Shown: one piece after another, positions 12,240 through 21,110 of the stretch
How the letters are laid out: every line of letters starts with the position of its first letter
How positions within the stretch are numbered: position 1 is the first letter of the stretch
NCBI GenBank assembly: GCA_949298075.1
Contig: CASFVA010000050.1
Span: 1 to 36,394, forward strand
Length of the DNA stretch: 36,394 nucleotides
DNA from: an uncultured Lentisphaeria bacterium
GTDB taxonomy: Bacteria > Verrucomicrobiota > Lentisphaeria > Victivallales > Victivallaceae
Direction of reading: 5' to 3'
The notes under the pieces: generated by a model
What the model saw: the letters and a program-made list of their open reading frames with translations, nothing else
Databases searched by the model: none
What the model was told of the DNA's origin: nothing
Made by a program: the position numbers and the translations under genes

Positions 12240-13016
12240 TCACCATTCCTGTCCTCCGCCGAGCCGGGCCGACAGCTCCCGGGCGGCGGCAACGGTCAGC
12301 CCGGCCAGTTCGGCGGTGTGGGGCCGCAGGTAGAGTTCGGACCCCGACACGCTGATTCCGGCCACCGCCAGTCCGGCGGCGCTCAGAATCGGAGCGGCCA
12401 CGCAGTAGACGCCCTCTTCATGTTCGCAGTTGTCGACGGCGTAACCCCGGACGCGGATGAGTTCAAGTTCATCCTGCAGCTCCGCCGCCGAGCCGATGGT
12501 AGTCGAAGTAAAGCGCTTCAACTTCAGTGCGGCGCAGATGGCGTTCCGCTCGGCCGGAGCCAGATGTGCCAGCATGGCCTTGCCCACACCCGTGCAGTAT
12601 ACCGGAGCCGTGCTGCCGATCAGCGAAGCCATGCGCACTGTGCGGCGGCCATCCACCTTGTCGATATAAAAGACCTGTCCGTCGCGGAGACTGGCCAGAT
12701 GAACGGTCTCCAGAGTGCGTTCGGCCAGTTCTTCCAGAAAAGGACGGGCGACGCCGGTCAGGGGATGCTGGCGTTCAGCGGCTTTTCCGAGCCGCACCGC
12801 TCCGAAATCCAGCCGGTAGCTGCCGTTCCGGCGGCAGACCATGCGGCGCGAGATCAGGAACTTCAACATCCGGAAGGCGGTGCTTTCCGGAATTCCGGCG
12901 GCGGCGGCGATTTCCTTTCCGCTCAGTCCGCGGGGGCTGGCGGCAACGATGTCGATGATGTCGAACAGACGGGTCAGGCTCTTTTCACCGTCCGGCGGCC
13001 CGGCTCCCGGCCTCAC
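12240..13016 (-). CDS. IclR-family transcriptional regulator
   Basis: The product has 258 residues. A winged helix-turn-helix DNA-binding domain occupies ~12-72 (KSLTRLFDIIDIVAAS, then GLSGKEIAAAAGIPESTAFR). An IclR effector-binding domain occupies ~85-250, with GKAMLAHL and the RVRGYAVDNCEHEEGVYCVAAPI region typical of the family. Regulators of this type respond to small aromatic or sugar-derived acids and often control adjacent catabolic genes. The start is GTG at 13016, which overlaps the stop of the MlaA-hydrolase gene in a GTGA arrangement, with GGGGAGG a few bases upstream. It precedes the Gfo/Idh oxidoreductase and may regulate that gene and the GH2 gene. The effector is unknown. Confidence 0.92.
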   Translation of the reverse strand: MRPGAGPPDGEKSLTRLFDIIDIVAASPRGLSGKEIAAAAGIPESTAFRMLKFLISRRMVCRRNGSYRLDFGAVRLGKAAERQHPLTGVARPFLEELAERTLETVHLASLRDGQVFYIDKVDGRRTVRMASLIGSTAPVYCTGVGKAMLAHLAPAERNAICAALKLKRFTSTTIGSAAELQDELELIRVRGYAVDNCEHEEGVYCVAAPILSAAGLAVAGISVSGSELYLRPHTAELAGLTVAAARELSARLGGGQEW

Positions 13017-15121
13017 CGTTGGGCCTCCCCGGTGGCGGCGGCGACAATGGCCTCCTGCACCGGTGCGGTATAGAGGTTGCCGAGATGGCCGCCGTTGGAA
13101 AACCAGGTCAGGCGGTCGCCGAATTCCCCGTCCAGAAAATCCCGGTCAGCCCGGGTCAGCAGAAAGTCGTCGATATTGTGCAGGACCTTCACCTCCGGCC
13201 GGCCCCGGAGCGCGGGAGCGAACGACCGCAGATTGGAACGGCGGTAAATTTCGTCAACCGTCAGTTCCGGATGTTCGGCTGCGACAAAACGGGTCGCGTA
13301 TTCCGTTGCACTGACCCGGTCGATTTCCAGATAGAGCGCGTTGCGGTCACCCCAGCTGTAACGGTGTTCAAAGCCGAGTCCGCGATCGCGTTCGGCGGTG
13401 AACAACAGCGATCTCAGCGCGGTTTTGAGGTAGAGCCCGGCGAAACATTCCGCCTCGGCGTCGTCGACCTCGATGCCGTATTCCGTCGGATCCGCGATGT
13501 TCGGATAATAGACTTCCGGAGGCCGGCTGAACGCCAGAAGCTGTTTGCCCGCCACCTCGACCGTCCGGTCAATGGTCTCGGCCATTGACCAGTGGCGGCC
13601 GGCGGCTCCGAGCCGGTCGGCGGTCTCCACGGCGTGGCGCAGATCCACGGGCGGATTGATGGCGACGTAGCGGGAAATTCCCAGTTCCGGACTGGCGGCT
13701 TCCAGTTCGGCGATTTTGAGGGTGTGCAGTCCGCCGAAGCTGTAGCCGATCAGCGTGATTTCCGGAGCCTGGATCCGGCCGGCGTCCTTCAGGTCTCCGA
13801 TGACCCGTTTGAGTGCCTGGCGGATTTGTTCGGCGTCGTCCGGCAGATGTCCGGGCAGCTGCCGGTTGCCGAAGGCTGCGGCAAACTGCCAGGCGAAAGC
13901 GCTGTCGATGGCGGCCACCGCCATGCCGTGGCGGTTAAGCAGTTCCGCCAGTGCGGTGGCAGTGAAGCCGAAATAGTTGCCGCCGATGCCGGGCATTAGC
14001 AGGGCGAGCCGCTCCGGCCGCGGCTGGCCGGAATCGGATTCCGGCGCCGTCCAGAAACCGTAACGCAGTTTCGGCGCGGATTCGACCATTTCAAGGTCGC
14101 GCTCCTCGCATTTCGCGGAAAAGTCACGGTTGAACACGGAGAGGCGCATGTACCAGAAATCGTCGTTGTTCTGCGCGGTGAACCTCACCACCCTCAGAGA
14201 GTCCTGCACCGGTCCGCGGCTGCGGTAGCCGGGAATCGGCACCCAGCTCCCCTGCAGTCCGGGCAAAGCCGGCACCGGTTCGGGTTCGGGGGCCAGGTGG
14301 GTGCCGGGCGCGGCGGCGGCGGCGGCCTTCCGGGTCCGGGCGGCCCGGAACAGGGCGTTGGCAGTCTGGTAACGCCACATGCGCAGCTGCAGCTCGCGGT
14401 TCAGCAGGGCCATTTCGCGGAAAGTCTTGTAGCGGTCGCTGCTGCCATCCGCCACCCGGGAGAAATCCCGGTGAGCCATGACCATGCGGTTGAGCGCGGT
14501 CGCCCAGCCGGCGTATGGAATGTAGGTCTTGCCGTCGAATGCCATGTCAAAAAGCGAACCCACGGTGTCGCGCACGTTGATCGACGAACACAGCGGCAGC
14601 ATGAACGTGCAGCCCGGACCAATGCCCCACGAGGCGAACGCCTTGCCGAAATTGGCCTCGGTGGGGTGGAATCCCCAGCCGCCGGCCACGTCGAACAGTC
14701 CGGCGCATCCGAGGGTGGTGTTGATGAAAAAGCGGAGCGTTTCATCTCCGGCGCCCTCCCATTCCGCGCTCAGCAGGCAGCTGACCGCCCGGCCGGGAAA
14801 CTCGAGGTTGAGGCAGGCATTGTGGATCGCCTCGATCACCGGTCGCGGAAAAATCGAGGTGTAAACTCTTCCCACCGGATCCGCGACGTAGTCCATGAGA
14901 AAGGCGTTCACGGCGAACATGGAGCGGTTGAATCCTTCGATCGGGTCCCGGCCGCCCAGGGCGTTTTCGATTTCCGACGGCGTCCAGGTGGTGGTGCGTT
15001 CAGTTTCGGCTGCCGGGACTTCCGGGGCGGGCGCCGGCTCCGGAGTCGTGGCGCAGCCGCAGAAAAACATCAGGGCCGCCGCGGCCGCCGCCCAGTTTCT
15101 CATTCCAAATCGCCGGAACAT
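13013..15121 (-). CDS. MlaA-type lipoprotein domain fused to an alpha/beta hydrolase
   Basis: The product has 702 residues. An N-terminal signal with a lipobox-like CGC (probable lipidated C23) precedes an MlaA/VacJ domain at ~55-255, which shows DPIEGFNRSMFAVN, FFINTTLGCAGLFDVA, FGKAFASWGIGPG and INVRDTVG. MlaA is the outer-membrane lipoprotein that removes misplaced phospholipids from the outer leaflet. After an Ala/Pro-rich linker (~262-295) comes an alpha/beta hydrolase at ~345-700. Its nucleophile elbow is GYSFGG (S461), with a likely acid at D651/D652 and histidine H679 (NGGHLG), so a full triad is visible. MlaA alone is usually ~250 residues. The start at 15121 has GGAGG nine bases upstream. 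The 3' end is coupled to the IclR gene. A periplasmic (phospho)lipid hydrolase role is inference. Confidence 0.85.
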   Translation of the reverse strand: MFRRFGMRNWAAAAAALMFFCGCATTPEPAPAPEVPAAETERTTTWTPSEIENALGGRDPIEGFNRSMFAVNAFLMDYVADPVGRVYTSIFPRPVIEAIHNACLNLEFPGRAVSCLLSAEWEGAGDETLRFFINTTLGCAGLFDVAGGWGFHPTEANFGKAFASWGIGPGCTFMLPLCSSINVRDTVGSLFDMAFDGKTYIPYAGWATALNRMVMAHRDFSRVADGSSDRYKTFREMALLNRELQLRMWRYQTANALFRAARTRKAAAAAAPGTHLAPEPEPVPALPGLQGSWVPIPGYRSRGPVQDSLRVVRFTAQNNDDFWYMRLSVFNRDFSAKCEERDLEMVESAPKLRYGFWTAPESDSGQPRPERLALLMPGIGGNYFGFTATALAELLNRHGMAVAAIDSAFAWQFAAAFGNRQLPGHLPDDAEQIRQALKRVIGDLKDAGRIQAPEITLIGYSFGGLHTLKIAELEAASPELGISRYVAINPPVDLRHAVETADRLGAAGRHWSMAETIDRTVEVAGKQLLAFSRPPEVYYPNIADPTEYGIEVDDAEAECFAGLYLKTALRSLLFTAERDRGLGFEHRYSWGDRNALYLEIDRVSATEYATRFVAAEHPELTVDEIYRRSNLRSFAPALRGRPEVKVLHNIDDFLLTRADRDFLDGEFGDRLTWFSNGGHLGNLYTAPVQEAIVAAATGEAQR

Positions 15122-15161
15122 GGAGTCAATCCTCCGCAGTAACTATTGAGTGATTCAAAAT

Positions 15162-15238: not shown

Positions 15239-15290
15239 ATGCAAATAAACCAGAAACCGCAACCGTCATCAATATTTGGAGAGAAATTTC

Positions 15291-17006
15291 ATGTTCAAGC
15301 TCAACGACATCAATCCGGCGCTGCCCGTCGCGATTGCCGCCGACCACGGCGGTTTCAAGGCGAAATCCGATCTCGCCGTCCGGTTGGAACAATCCGGACG
15401 CCGGGTCATCGACTGCGGTCCCTGTGAATTTGACGCCGCCGACGACTATCCCGATTTCGGCGCTCCGGCGGCCCGGGCGGTGGCGGTCGGCGAGGCCGGG
15501 GCCGCGATTCTGATCTGCCGTTCCGGCATCGGCATGGGGATGACGGCCAATCGTTTTCACGGAGTCCGGGCGGTGGTGGCCGCTTCCGCCGAGGCGGCCC
15601 GGATCAGCCGTGAACACAATGCCTCCAACGTGCTGGTGCTGCCGGGCGACGCGCTCGACGCCGGGGCGATGTGGAAAATCGCCGAGGCCTGGCTGGCAAC
15701 GCCTTTCAGTGGCGACGAACGGCATCTGCGGAGGCTGCAAAAGCTGGAACCCGCCACTTACGATGATATTGCGGCGCTGCGGAATTCCGACCCCGAACTG
15801 GCCCGGATGATTGACTCCGAAGCCGAACGTCAGAATGACGGCATTGAACTGATCGCCAGCGAGAACTTCGCCAGCTGCGCGGTACGGGCGGCCCAGGGTT
15901 CGGTGCTGACCAACAAATATGCCGAGGGCTATCCCGGCAAACGCTATTACAACGGCTGTGAATTCATTGACGAGGTTGAACAGCTGGCCATCGACCGGGC
16001 CAAGGCGCTGTTCGGGGCGGAGGCGGCCAATGTCCAGTCTCACTGCGGCAGCGGCGCCAACCAGGCGGTCTACGCGGCGCTCTGCGAACCCGGCGACACC
16101 GTGCTGGCCATGAGCCTTGATCACGGCGGCCACCTGTCGCACGGGCATCCGCTGAATTTTTCCGGAATGACCTACCGCATCGTTCCCTACGGCGTCGACC
16201 GGGAAACCGAAATGATCGACTACGACGAAGTGGAGCGGCTCGCGGTTGAGAACCATCCGAAAATGATTCTCGCCGGCGCCAGCGCCTATCCGCGGGTCAT
16301 TGATTTCCCGCGGCTGCGGGCCATTGCCGACCGGGTCGGGGCCAAACTCTTTGTCGACATGGCCCACATTGCCGGTCTGGTGGCGGCGGGTGAACATCCC
16401 AATCCGGTGCCGTACTGCGATGTGGTGACCACGACCACCCACAAGACGCTGCGCGGGCCCCGGGGCGGACTGATTCTCTGCCGTGAGGAATACCTCAAGG
16501 CGATCAATTCACGGGTGTTTCCCGGACTGCAGGGCGGCCCGCTCGAACATGTGATCGCGGCCAAAGCGGTCTGCTTCAAAGAGGCCGCCGGAGCAGAGTT
16601 CAAGGCCTATCAGCACCAGGTGCGGATCAACGCCGCCCGGCTGGCCGCCGAACTGGCGGCGCGGGGCTTCCGGATTGTGTCCGGCGGGACGGACAACCAC
16701 CTTATGCTGATCGACCTGCGTCCGCGCGGCGCCACCGGCAAAGCGGTGGCCAACGCGCTGGATCTCGCCCGGATCACGGTCAACAAGAACATGATCCCCT
16801 TTGATCCCGAAAAACCGTTTGTCACCAGCGGCATCCGGATCGGCACCCCGGCGGTGACCACCCGCGGCCTCCGGGAGGAGGATATGGTCACGATCGCGGA
16901 CTTCATCGACCGCGGCGTGGCGCATCTCGGCGATGAGGCGGCGCTGCGGGCGCTGGGCAATGAGGTCCGGGAATTCATGAGTGCGTTCCCGATGCCGCAG
17001 TTTTAA
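15291..17006 (+). CDS. glyA: Fusion of ribose-5-phosphate isomerase B and serine hydroxymethyltransferase
   Basis: The product has 571 residues. Residues ~10-150 are RpiB-like: ADHGGF near 17, DDYPDFG near 51, and [17 protein letters not shown] containing C76, the position of the catalytic cysteine. The segment ISREHN has H109. RpiB interconverts ribose- and ribulose-5-phosphate. Residues ~156-571 are a full-length serine hydroxymethyltransferase (usual length ~415), with [28 protein letters not shown] and the PLP lysine K385 in [13 protein letters not shown]. It makes glycine and methylene-tetrahydrofolate from serine. The start is ATG 15291, with GGAGAG eight bases upstream. The RpiB loop reads CRSG where E. 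coli has CGTG, so isomerase activity is probable but not certain. No stop or frameshift separates the halves. serS follows after 27 bases. Confidence 0.93.
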
Positions 17007-18442: not shown

Positions 18443-20275
18443 TTACTTTTCCAGGGGCTCCAGAACCCGGAGCGCAGTGGTCACGTTGCCGAAGGGGGCG
18501 CTCAGCGCCGCTCCGGCGATTTCGTCGCGGAGGGCGGCCAGGTTTTCCCGGGCGATGGCGAGGCCGGTTTCGCGTTGGACGTCGCGGTCCGGCGAGGCGG
18601 CCATACGTCGCATCACGCTGTCCGGCACGGTGACACCGGGGACCTCGGTGCGCATGAATTCAGCGTTTTTCAGGCTGACCAGCGGCCAGATGCCGGCGAT
18701 CACCGGGACCCGGAACTCCCGGAGCCGGTGAATGAAGCCGAGCAGTTTTTCCGGATCAAACACCGGCTGGGTCACGATGAAGTCGGCTCCGGCCTCGATT
18801 TTGCGGCGGGCGCGTTCGAATTCCCGGTCCAGGTCGATGGCGTTGGGGTCGACGCCGACGCCGATAACCGCCGAGGTCGGAGCGTTGAGCGGCTGGCCGC
18901 CGAGATCGACGCCGCGGTTCATGCCGTTCTGGAGTTTGACCAGCCCGATGGAGTCGATGTCAAAGACGCCCGAGCTGAAGGGATAATCACCGAGTTTCGG
19001 CGGATCTCCGGTGATGAAGAGCAGATTGTGCAGTCCGGCTCCAGCGTAGCCCAGCAATTCCGCCTGCAGTCCGATCAGGCTGCGGTCGCGGCAGCAGCAA
19101 TGGGCCAGGGTTTCAATGCCGCACTCGCGCTCGATGGCCATGGCGGTCACCAGCGTGCTGATCCGGGAGCTCGCCCGCGGACCGTCGGGCAGATTCACCG
19201 CGTCGATGCCGGCGGCGGCGCACTGACGGGCGCCGGCCAGGGTTTTGGTCAGGTCGAAGCCGCGCGGGGGCGTGATTTCGACGGTAACGACAAATTCTCC
19301 GGCGGCCAGCTTGGCTCCGAGCCGGGAACGTTTCGCCAGCGGAGGCGGGTCCGGCAGCGGGGAACCGGAGCCGCCGCCCAGCTCAATCACCCTGGTTTCC
19401 GCCCGGACAATCGGTTTGACTGATCGCGCCAGCTCCGCAATATGATCGGGATTGATGCCGCAGCAGCCGCCGATGGCCGCTGCTCCGAGCTGGGCGTAAC
19501 GCTTGGCGTAAGTGGAAAAGTATTCGGCGCTGGTCATGTACAGCATTCGGCCGTCCACCGTGCGCGGCGCACCGGCGTTGGGTTGGACGATCACCGGCAG
19601 CTCAGTGCGGCGGATCAGACGTTCCAGGTTGACGAGGGCTTCTTCCGGGCCGGCGCCGCAATTGAGGCCGAGCGCGGTGGGCGGAGTGCCGGGATGTGCC
19701 GCGACCAGAGCCAGAAAATTTTCCAGTTCGTCCTGTCCCGATGCGGCCGCCGCGTGGGAATCCAGCGCAAAGCTTAGCACATACGGCAGTTCCGGAAAAT
19801 TCAGCATGGCCGCCAGTGCGGCGGCGGTGTCCGCCGTGGTGCGGAGTGATTCGAACATGATGAAATCAGCGGAACTCAGCGCCGCGATCTGTTCGGAAAG
19901 TATTTCCGGGCGGGATCGCCGGTCGGCGGTGCTGTCCGGCTCCCCGACCGGTCCGACCGATCCGGCGATCAGGGCGCGTCCGGCGGCGGTTTCCCGGGCG
20001 ATCCGGACTGCGGCGGCATTGATTTGAGCCGTCCGGTCAGCCAGACCGAAGCGGGCCAGCCGCCGGGAGTTGGCGTTGTAGCTGTTGGTGGTCAGCACCT
20101 CGGCTCCGGCGTCGAGGTAGCGCCGGTGGATGTCGGCGATGACGTCGGGTTTGGAAAGCGACAGCTCTTCGTAAGAGGCATTGACAAAAAAGTTGCGGCG
20201 GTAAATTTCGGTGCCCATGGCGCCGTCAAAAATCACCAGCGATTCCGAAAGTTTCTGTTTCAGCGGATCAGTCAT
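18443..20275 (-). CDS. Bifunctional homocysteine S-methyltransferase / methylenetetrahydrofolate reductase
   Basis: The product has 610 residues. The N-terminal ~300 form a homocysteine S-methyltransferase domain beginning VIFDGAMGTEIYRR. Its zinc cysteines are in LNCGAG (~residue 205) and GGCCGINPDH (~270). From ~320 onward is a 5,10-methylenetetrahydrofolate reductase (VVTVEITPPRG, LFITGDPPKLGDYPF, FIVTQPVFD). The arrangement equals B. subtilis YitJ (about 610 residues): the reductase makes methyl-tetrahydrofolate and the methyltransferase makes methionine. The start MTDPLKQK at 20275 precedes the fold directly. Another ATG lies four codons upstream at 20287, and a longer frame to 20446 would overlap the upstream gene. 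It is convergent with glyA-serS, whose SHMT makes its folate substrate. No frameshift is seen. Confidence 0.92.
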   Translation of the reverse strand: MTDPLKQKLSESLVIFDGAMGTEIYRRNFFVNASYEELSLSKPDVIADIHRRYLDAGAEVLTTNSYNANSRRLARFGLADRTAQINAAAVRIARETAAGRALIAGSVGPVGEPDSTADRRSRPEILSEQIAALSSADFIMFESLRTTADTAAALAAMLNFPELPYVLSFALDSHAAAASGQDELENFLALVAAHPGTPPTALGLNCGAGPEEALVNLERLIRRTELPVIVQPNAGAPRTVDGRMLYMTSAEYFSTYAKRYAQLGAAAIGGCCGINPDHIAELARSVKPIVRAETRVIELGGGSGSPLPDPPPLAKRSRLGAKLAAGEFVVTVEITPPRGFDLTKTLAGARQCAAAGIDAVNLPDGPRASSRISTLVTAMAIERECGIETLAHCCCRDRSLIGLQAELLGYAGAGLHNLLFITGDPPKLGDYPFSSGVFDIDSIGLVKLQNGMNRGVDLGGQPLNAPTSAVIGVGVDPNAIDLDREFERARRKIEAGADFIVTQPVFDPEKLLGFIHRLREFRVPVIAGIWPLVSLKNAEFMRTEVPGVTVPDSVMRRMAASPDRDVQRETGLAIARENLAALRDEIAGAALSAPFGNVTTALRVLEPLEK

Positions 20276-20344
20276 TGGACAGTTCATCCCATTCAGATTG
20301 AGGCAGCTCCAGCGTCCGGCAGCCGTGCCCGGATTCCAACATAT

Positions 20345-20373
20345 AATATAATCGCGAAAACCGGCATTGCCAC
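20345..20373 (-). promoter_or_regulatory. Possible promoter for the methyltransferase-MTHFR gene
   Basis: On the minus strand GTGGCA (20373-20368) and TATATT (20350-20345) are 17 bases apart, in an AT-rich patch 57 bases upstream of the first candidate start codon. The -35 box overlaps the hairpin that probably terminates the upstream gene, so one of the two roles may be wrong. Confidence 0.35.
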
Positions 20374-20379
20374 TGCCGG
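20357..20379 (-). terminator. Weak intrinsic terminator downstream of the glnS-exported protein pair
   Basis: A 6-bp stem, CCGGCA/TGCCGG (20361-20379), with a 7-base loop is followed on the minus strand by TTTT (20360-20357). It stands about 20 bases after the stop codon at 20400 and separates that gene from the MTHFR fusion gene. Confidence 0.5.
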
Positions 20380-20399
20380 AAGAGCAAAAAACACCGTGC

Positions 20400-21110
20400 T
20401 CAGGGCGTCGCAGCCAGCGGCCGCAGATAGCAGGCGCCTGAACCATCCTCCCCTGCCGTCACCCACATGAGCCGGCGGCCGTCGGCGTCGAGGTAGAGAT
20501 CACCGGAACCGCCGTCCGGGAGCCGGGATTCTCCGGAAACCGCTCTCCAGCCGCGTCCGGCCAGCGCGGCGTCCAGGGACGTGAAAACGTTCCGCCGGCT
20601 GCCGGAGGCCCCCCGGAATGCGCCGTAGACCGCGTCACGCCCGGCGAAGCGAATCACCTGAACCGGAGTTGCGCCATCCGGCGGCGGCGGCAGTTCCGCC
20701 GGCCAGGTCGGGTGGGGCAGCCGCTCCGGGGCGGCGACGGCAAACACCGTCACCGGAGCACCGGGACCCGAATCAATCAGCAGCCGGCGTTCGATCCAGC
20801 CGTCCGGACGCTGGAAAGTCAGCCGGATGGTGTCCGGTGCAACGGCGAGATTTTCCGGCGCGAAGCGACTTTTCAGAAATTCAGCCAGCCCGGCCAGCCC
20901 GGCCGGGCAACGGCCGGTTTCCAGCCGCAGCCGGACGCCGTTAACTTCGATATTTTCACTGTGCAGAGGGGTGTAACCCGGCAGTTCCGTCGCCGCGGCC
21001 CACCGCTGTCCGGAGCGGTTGCGCCACGGCCACAGCGTGAATACCTCGGCTCCGGCCCGAAGTCCGAGTCCGAGCGCCAGAAGCGCCGCCGCCGTCCGGA
21101 ATGCCCGCAT
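20400..21110 (-). CDS. Exported protein of unknown function
   Basis: The product has 236 residues and I do not recognise a family. The N-terminus [21 protein letters not shown] is a signal peptide (cleavage after ~21), so the protein is probably periplasmic. The mature part starts EVFTLWPWRNRSGQ and has alternating short hydrophobic strands, a proline-rich patch (LPHPTWPAELPPPPDG) at ~135-150, and only two mature cysteines (RCPAG near 88 and GACYL near 227). No membrane segment or catalytic motif is evident. The start ATG 21110 overlaps the glnS stop by one base (TGATG), so it is translationally coupled to a housekeeping synthetase gene. That coupling probably reflects tight packing rather than shared function. 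Confidence 0.75.
   Translation of the reverse strand: MRAFRTAAALLALGLGLRAGAEVFTLWPWRNRSGQRWAAATELPGYTPLHSENIEVNGVRLRLETGRCPAGLAGLAEFLKSRFAPENLAVAPDTIRLTFQRPDGWIERRLLIDSGPGAPVTVFAVAAPERLPHPTWPAELPPPPDGATPVQVIRFAGRDAVYGAFRGASGSRRNVFTSLDAALAGRGWRAVSGESRLPDGGSGDLYLDADGRRLMWVTAGEDGSGACYLRPLAATP

Follow-up and report, generated by a model that had tools for sequence, protein, structure and literature searches.

The window analysed here, a 36,394-nucleotide stretch of contig CASFVA010000050.1 from an uncultured Lentisphaeria gut bacterium, carries on its minus strand a gene that joins an MlaA lipoprotein to an α/β hydrolase of the MlaY family in one chain. The gene and its parts are laid out as follows.

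13013..15121, minus: MlaA-hydrolase fusion gene, 702 amino acids plus stop, a single open frame without interruption
15131..15135, minus: GGAGG, Shine-Dalgarno-like, 9 bases 5' of the ATG, read from the sequence
15053..15121, minus: signal peptide (residues 1-22) and lipobox-like Cys23 (FCGC), N-termini judged by eye
14393..14950, minus: MlaA domain, residues 58-243, from the PF04333 match and the solved-structure match
14252..14311, minus: Ala/Pro-rich linker, residues 271-290, from sequence and model
13016..14251, minus: MlaY-family α/β hydrolase domain, residues 291-702, from alignment, model and family profile
13835..13837, minus: codon of Asp429 (PGxxPxDA), invariant in the alignments
13739..13741, minus: codon of Ser461, the nucleophile in GYSFGG, from the alignments
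13166..13168, minus: codon of Asp652, the probable catalytic acid, from the alignments
13085..13087, minus: codon of His679 in GGHLGN, from the alignments

The MlaA half is identified by PF04333, which matches residues 58-243 at 5.1e-45, above the family cut-off. In a full-length AlphaFold2 model built from a 32-row alignment (predicted local distance difference test, pLDDT, 88.6; predicted template modelling score, pTM, 0.88), Foldseek matches the first half to the solved MlaA structure 5nuo (template modelling score 0.81 by target length, root-mean-square deviation 2.7) and the second half to α/β hydrolases. Mean pLDDT is 60 over linker residues 271-280 and 79 over residues 281-290. The hydrolase domain modelled alone reaches pLDDT 90.9 and pTM 0.92, and it includes a long all-helical stretch (about residues 494-638) ahead of the strand preceding Asp652. 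Abhydrolase_6 matches the C-terminal half of the fusion weakly, at E 0.001 and under the cut-off, and is found at E 0.01 or better in 22 of 34 family members. An initial annotation, made from the sequence, had placed MlaA and a hydrolase in one chain at 13013-15121; these coordinates are correct, and the strand, which it left unstated, is minus.

The same annotation described a complete hydrolase triad with Asp651 or Asp652 as the acid, and the alignments bear this out. Ser461, Asp652 and His679 are invariant in three alignments (34, 32 and 33 rows), and of 51 homologues all 51 have Ser461, 49 have Asp652 and 48 have His679. To judge from row lengths, the missing residues fit three rows truncated by contig ends (L021, L022 and L029). 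Asp652 is, by sequence, the better acid candidate, since position 652 is invariant in the alignments and is D or E in the fusion and five distant proteins, while position 651 varies, being N in one of these six and in several split relatives. We also note that the conservation of Asp429 equals that of the triad.

The architecture recurs among related genomes. A close survey took in the window's own genome and 59 relatives, 60 in all, and 51 have a match to the protein; in G046 the match is solely an MlaA next to MlaC, which leaves the hydrolase in 50. It is fused to MlaA in 39 genomes, adjoins an MlaA gene on the same strand in 10, and lies in pieces on different contigs in one (G043). A search for MlaA-plus-hydrolase architectures, as the initial annotation had proposed, thus returns a recurrent family. 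Within the genus the fused form occurs in 28 of 34 genomes, and outside it in 11; contig ends cut three of the 39. A contig scan with one peptide pattern from alignment A2 adds 33 loci, 32 fused and one split, in Lentisphaeria and allied records (Victivallales, Kiritimatiellota, Verrucomicrobiales); because a single pattern was used, this restriction says little on other phyla. Two of the 33 loci are omitted from alignment A3 (L099, cut by a contig end, and L110, with split genes). Since an identical architecture is found again in dozens of other genomes, the 702-residue frame is neither a chance fusion nor an assembly artefact.

The N-termini, compared by eye, show a Cys at the place of Cys23 in most fused homologues, and all ten separate hydrolases have a signal-peptide-like start. 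One could suppose that the MlaA half is a mere outer-membrane anchor for an esterase and has lost lipid movement. A tether alone would account for the fusion, and the MlaA sequence is variable in the family, with a mean column identity of 42% in the fusion alignment. We nevertheless hold this to be improbable, as the MlaA domain retains its Pfam signature, its fold and a set of invariant residues (including D59, P60, E62, N65, R66, R184 and D185), and MlaA persists as a separate adjacent gene in the 10 split relatives, where covalent anchoring is impossible.

A wider survey covered 337 genomes, which we take to be Verrucomicrobiota from record titles and the GTDB scheme, with neighbours defined as lying on the same strand within 2,000 bases. 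The hydrolase is matched in 93 genomes, MlaA in 132 and MlaC in 39. Among 139 MlaA stretches, 95 have the hydrolase beside or fused to them, 40 have MlaC, four have neither, and none has both. These neighbours are close: every hydrolase lies within 370 bases of MlaA and every MlaC within 468. Separate frames are found in eight of the 95 (G040, G042, G044, G047, G049, G053, G054 and G297), and another of the 95 is a small out-of-frame piece (G289). Genome G205 holds two MlaA types, one paired with the hydrolase and the other with MlaC. The four MlaA with neither partner comprise one that runs off a contig end (G291), one beside an RND/MMPL-type transporter, by translation (G293), and two that stand alone (G238, a second copy, and G329). 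Three hydrolase stretches are without an MlaA neighbour; two (G191 and G266) probably belong to genes that are split across contigs, and the third (G221, a 26-bit match) is probably another hydrolase. A single MlaC occurs without MlaA (G190). MlaA adjoins a large RND/MMPL-type transporter at L118 4659-7860 (a Verrucomicrobiota genome) and at L138 233-3645 (a Roseomonas plasmid), and such transporters are perhaps a third kind of MlaA partner. MlaA, MlaB and MlaC have been described as mostly restricted to Proteobacteria (PMC10665443), in contrast to the occurrence of MlaA in 132 of the 337 genomes of this survey.

The other components of phospholipid transport were sought in the 60 genomes. MlaC has a match in one of the 60. 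The initial annotation had suggested looking for mlaC, mlaD and mlaE in the genome itself: in the window's own genome, which is 87% complete, MlaC has no match, whereas MlaD and MlaE are both present, on contig C18, and no MlaA other than the fusion was found. MlaD is detected in 46 of the 60 genomes and MlaE in the same 46, both being absent from the remaining 14 (G001, G004, G008, G010, G012, G015, G017, G019, G021, G022, G025, G028, G033 and G038). The hydrolase is kept in 13 of these 14; 12 of the 13 belong to one genus and five are at least 90% complete. These 13 genomes argue that the fusion is independent of the MlaDE importer. PldA is detected in none of the 60 genomes, with an E. coli positive control detected, and its PLA1 barrel domain (PF02253) is not among the Pfam matches of the fusion, which rules out a PldA-family identity for the hydrolase. 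LpxC is found in 55 of the 60, indicating that lipopolysaccharide (LPS) is likely in the surveyed genomes; the five without a match include one genome (G029) that carries the fusion and is 91% complete.

Relatives of the hydrolase extend beyond this phylum. A plasmid search with the fusion leads to hydrolase genes that adjoin MlaA genes. Six of 72,556 plasmid records match the hydrolase found there, and an MlaA gene adjoins it in all six. These records amount to three lineages (three near-identical Pseudomonas aeruginosa, two Skermanella, and Fusobacterium), in which the α/β hydrolase gene lies 5' of the MlaA gene; the hydrolase thus also has relatives in Pseudomonadota and Fusobacteriota. Family-profile scores are 226 bits for Pseudomonas, 226 for Fusobacterium and 175 and 174 for Skermanella. 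The Pseudomonas match covers profile positions 65-412, with an E-value of 9e-70 for a small set of frames, and the Ser, Asp and His of the triad align with it; the acid is E in the Fusobacterium protein. On plasmid pPALO11 (L133 3679-5183) the MlaY-like stretch looks broken, since it matches in two pieces and has no gene annotation. A TamB-domain gene comes after the MlaY-MlaZ-like pair in Skermanella (L130 7957-12177; L131 6858-11078), a link between lipid removal and possible phospholipid delivery. The primary MlaYZ paper is reportedly that of Guest et al. 2023 (PNAS).

The genes PA3238 and PA3239 are named MlaY and MlaZ; in the pathway proposed for them, MlaZ takes out mislocalised phospholipid, which MlaY then receives and degrades (PMC11131202, PMC12569750). 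Sphingosine-induced cardiolipin loss is prevented in an mlaY mutant and reduced in mlaZ and mlaA mutants (PMC11977310). The latter paper calls MlaY an integral outer-membrane protein homologous to PldA, a description that conflicts with the α/β hydrolase fold found here and likewise with the title of the primary MlaYZ paper as it appears in reference lists ('a periplasmic phospholipase'); the gene-number order given there would also swap Y and Z (PMC11977310).

The acidic C-terminal tail of E. coli MlaA recruits MlaC, whose docking place is the base of the MlaA channel on the periplasmic side (PMC10719372). The alignment shows this tail replaced in the fusion by the linker and hydrolase, which would tether the enzyme where MlaC would dock. 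We consider it likely that the gene product is a single-chain MlaZ-MlaY, which draws out mislocalised phospholipid and cleaves it rather than passing it on to MlaC. The chain would be exported and then held at the outer membrane via its lipobox. The structure of MlaA and published work on it suggest that the MlaA domain, placed in the outer membrane, would let mislocalised phospholipid through from the outer leaflet to the periplasmic mouth. There the hydrolase, on its flexible linker and at the MlaC docking place of E. coli MlaA, would take the lipid, and Ser461-Asp652-His679 would cleave its acyl esters, as the homology to MlaY and the triad suggest. The products may be released to the periplasm for recycling, so that MlaC would be unneeded, as would MlaDE in those genomes from which it is absent.

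Cleavage is favoured because the triad is intact, none of the 139 MlaA stretches has both partners, 13 hydrolase-bearing genomes are without detectable MlaD and MlaE, PldA is not detected, and the hydrolase is homologous to MlaY. The suggestion in the initial annotation that lipid is cleaved rather than returned gains support from these observations. In its proposed combination of MlaA-like and PldA-like functions the PldA part calls for correction, as the enzyme is an MlaY-like α/β hydrolase and not an outer-membrane barrel. Its remark that no characterised example was known is superseded by a two-protein example, MlaZ with MlaY of P. aeruginosa. The fusion is a real and widespread single-chain form of this recently described system, and in principle its mechanism has a precedent. 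What looks new is the fusion itself, the exclusion of MlaC and the retention of the system in the absence of MlaDE: no MlaA-hydrolase fusion is described among the titles and abstract openings listed by a literature search, and neither MlaC exclusion nor MlaDE independence was found in the literature searched, the primary MlaYZ paper lying outside both comparisons.

Several observations weigh against the proposed extraction and cleavage. MlaA was not found in 205 of the 337 phylum genomes. Within the genus the fusion is dispensable, six of the 34 genomes having no match, five of them at least 92% complete. Nine of the 60 genomes have no match to the protein (G003, G006, G009, G012, G026, G031, G035, G037 and G039), and in G012 the fusion, MlaD and MlaE are all without a match; as several of the no-match genomes are more than 90% complete, loss of the system is possible. 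The Pfam model could miss an MlaC that has diverged. No lipobox is seen by eye in three fused homologues (L040, L044 and L045), despite a signal-peptide-like start. The Pseudomonas plasmid pair is presumably PA3238/PA3239, an assignment made from gene order, counting back from minC (PA3243).

Moreover, 37 of the 50 genomes with the hydrolase, among them the window's own, have both MlaD and MlaE, as would be expected if the fusion still sent lipid to the inner membrane via a long MlaD, with the hydrolase as a side activity or sensor. Such a route seems to us very improbable: both proteins are missing from the other 13, MlaC has no match in 59 of the 60 genomes, and MlaD of the Planctomycetes-Verrucomicrobia-Chlamydiae (PVC) group is described as being without an outer-membrane barrel (PMC10665443).

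The reactions of α/β hydrolases are varied, and so are the fold matches. The 50 matches listed for the hydrolase domain are all at 10-18% identity, with no close solved relative among them, and include esterases, lipases, dehalogenases, thioesterases and one membrane phospholipase A (6i8w). The fold therefore does not reveal the substrate, and the enzyme might act on some other acyl substrate arriving via MlaA (lysophospholipid, lipid A acyl chains or external lipid), serving nutrition or LPS modification and not asymmetry control; LpxC, as noted, is common. We find this unlikely in view of the homology to a Pseudomonas lipase whose role on mislocalised phospholipid is published, and of the strict coupling of the hydrolase to MlaA in the place of MlaC.

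The descent of the MlaA half adds a further point against direct equivalence with the Pseudomonas pair. A single clade of all 44 hydrolase-linked MlaA is rejected (approximately unbiased test, p-AU 2.6e-5), which speaks against orthology between the MlaA half and MlaZ. In the MlaA-domain tree (64 rows, only four of MlaZ type, with some long branches), 40 hydrolase-linked Verrucomicrobiota rows fall on one side of a branch with support 94/87 (not starred), and a clade (100/97) within the other side unites the four rows from Pseudomonas, Skermanella and Fusobacterium. The tree suggests that the two MlaA-MlaY pairings are independent, or that the MlaA half was swapped. In this tree the fused group V1 forms a single clade (100/97), with the split genes around it; in the hydrolase tree, which is without an outgroup, a single fused clade is not rejected (p-AU 0.37).

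Taken together, we lean, with modest confidence, toward a broader view in which MlaA of this phylum has two mutually exclusive partners, MlaC for return of the lipid or an MlaY-type lipase for its destruction. On this broader view the single-chain MlaZ-MlaY would, in some genomes, be the entire outer-leaflet clean-up, without MlaC, MlaD, MlaE or PldA, and the MlaA-MlaY pairing would have arisen at least twice, in Verrucomicrobiota and, with the gene order reversed, in the Pseudomonas/Skermanella/Fusobacterium line.

Around the fusion gene, a promoter scan of the window gives three promoter-like sites, all on the plus strand and none for the minus-strand fusion gene. An IclR-type regulator (12240-13016, minus) overlaps the 3' end of the fusion gene by four bases. 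An operon with this downstream gene was rejected: tblastn finds no IclR relative beside the fusion at 62 loci (flanks up to 1.5 or 5 kilobases), so the regulator is not part of the system. Further along, a single 576-amino-acid frame (15276-17006, plus) joins ribose-5-phosphate isomerase B (PF02502) to serine hydroxymethyltransferase (PF00464), and at 18443-20446 (minus) homocysteine S-methyltransferase (PF02574) is fused to methylenetetrahydrofolate reductase (PF02219).

If the proposed cleavage is correct, outer-membrane asymmetry would be possible without lipid return to the inner membrane, one protein destroying misplaced phospholipid on site. Since the fusion holds extractor and lipase at a 1:1 ratio, its structure could reveal the proposed MlaZ-MlaY hand-over directly. 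The genomes without detectable MlaC, MlaD and MlaE would offer, by natural absence, a test of the direction of Mla transport, which is debated.

The closest known system is MlaY/MlaZ, with which the fusion shares an MlaA-family protein coupled to an exported α/β hydrolase of one family and the proposed removal and degradation of outer-leaflet phospholipid. It differs in that Pseudomonas, Skermanella and Fusobacterium have two genes with the hydrolase first, whereas here a single chain has MlaA first, and the MlaA halves do not fall in one clade. P. aeruginosa is also described as having a canonical MlaA with MlaC, whereas in the window's own genome no MlaA was found besides the fusion. With the canonical Mla system of E. 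coli (MlaA-MlaC-MlaBDEF) it has in common the MlaA domain and fold, a probable lipid entry from the outer leaflet, and the presence of MlaD and MlaE in the window's own genome; that genome has no MlaC match, however, and the MlaC-recruiting tail is replaced by the linker and hydrolase. PldA (OMPLA) resembles it in the likely end result, cleaved surface phospholipid, but is an outer-membrane barrel, whereas the fusion carries an α/β hydrolase, probably on the periplasmic side. The long MlaD (MlaEFD) of Veillonella is another MlaC-free route, yet MlaA is missing there too and the envelope is bridged by MlaD (PMC10665443).

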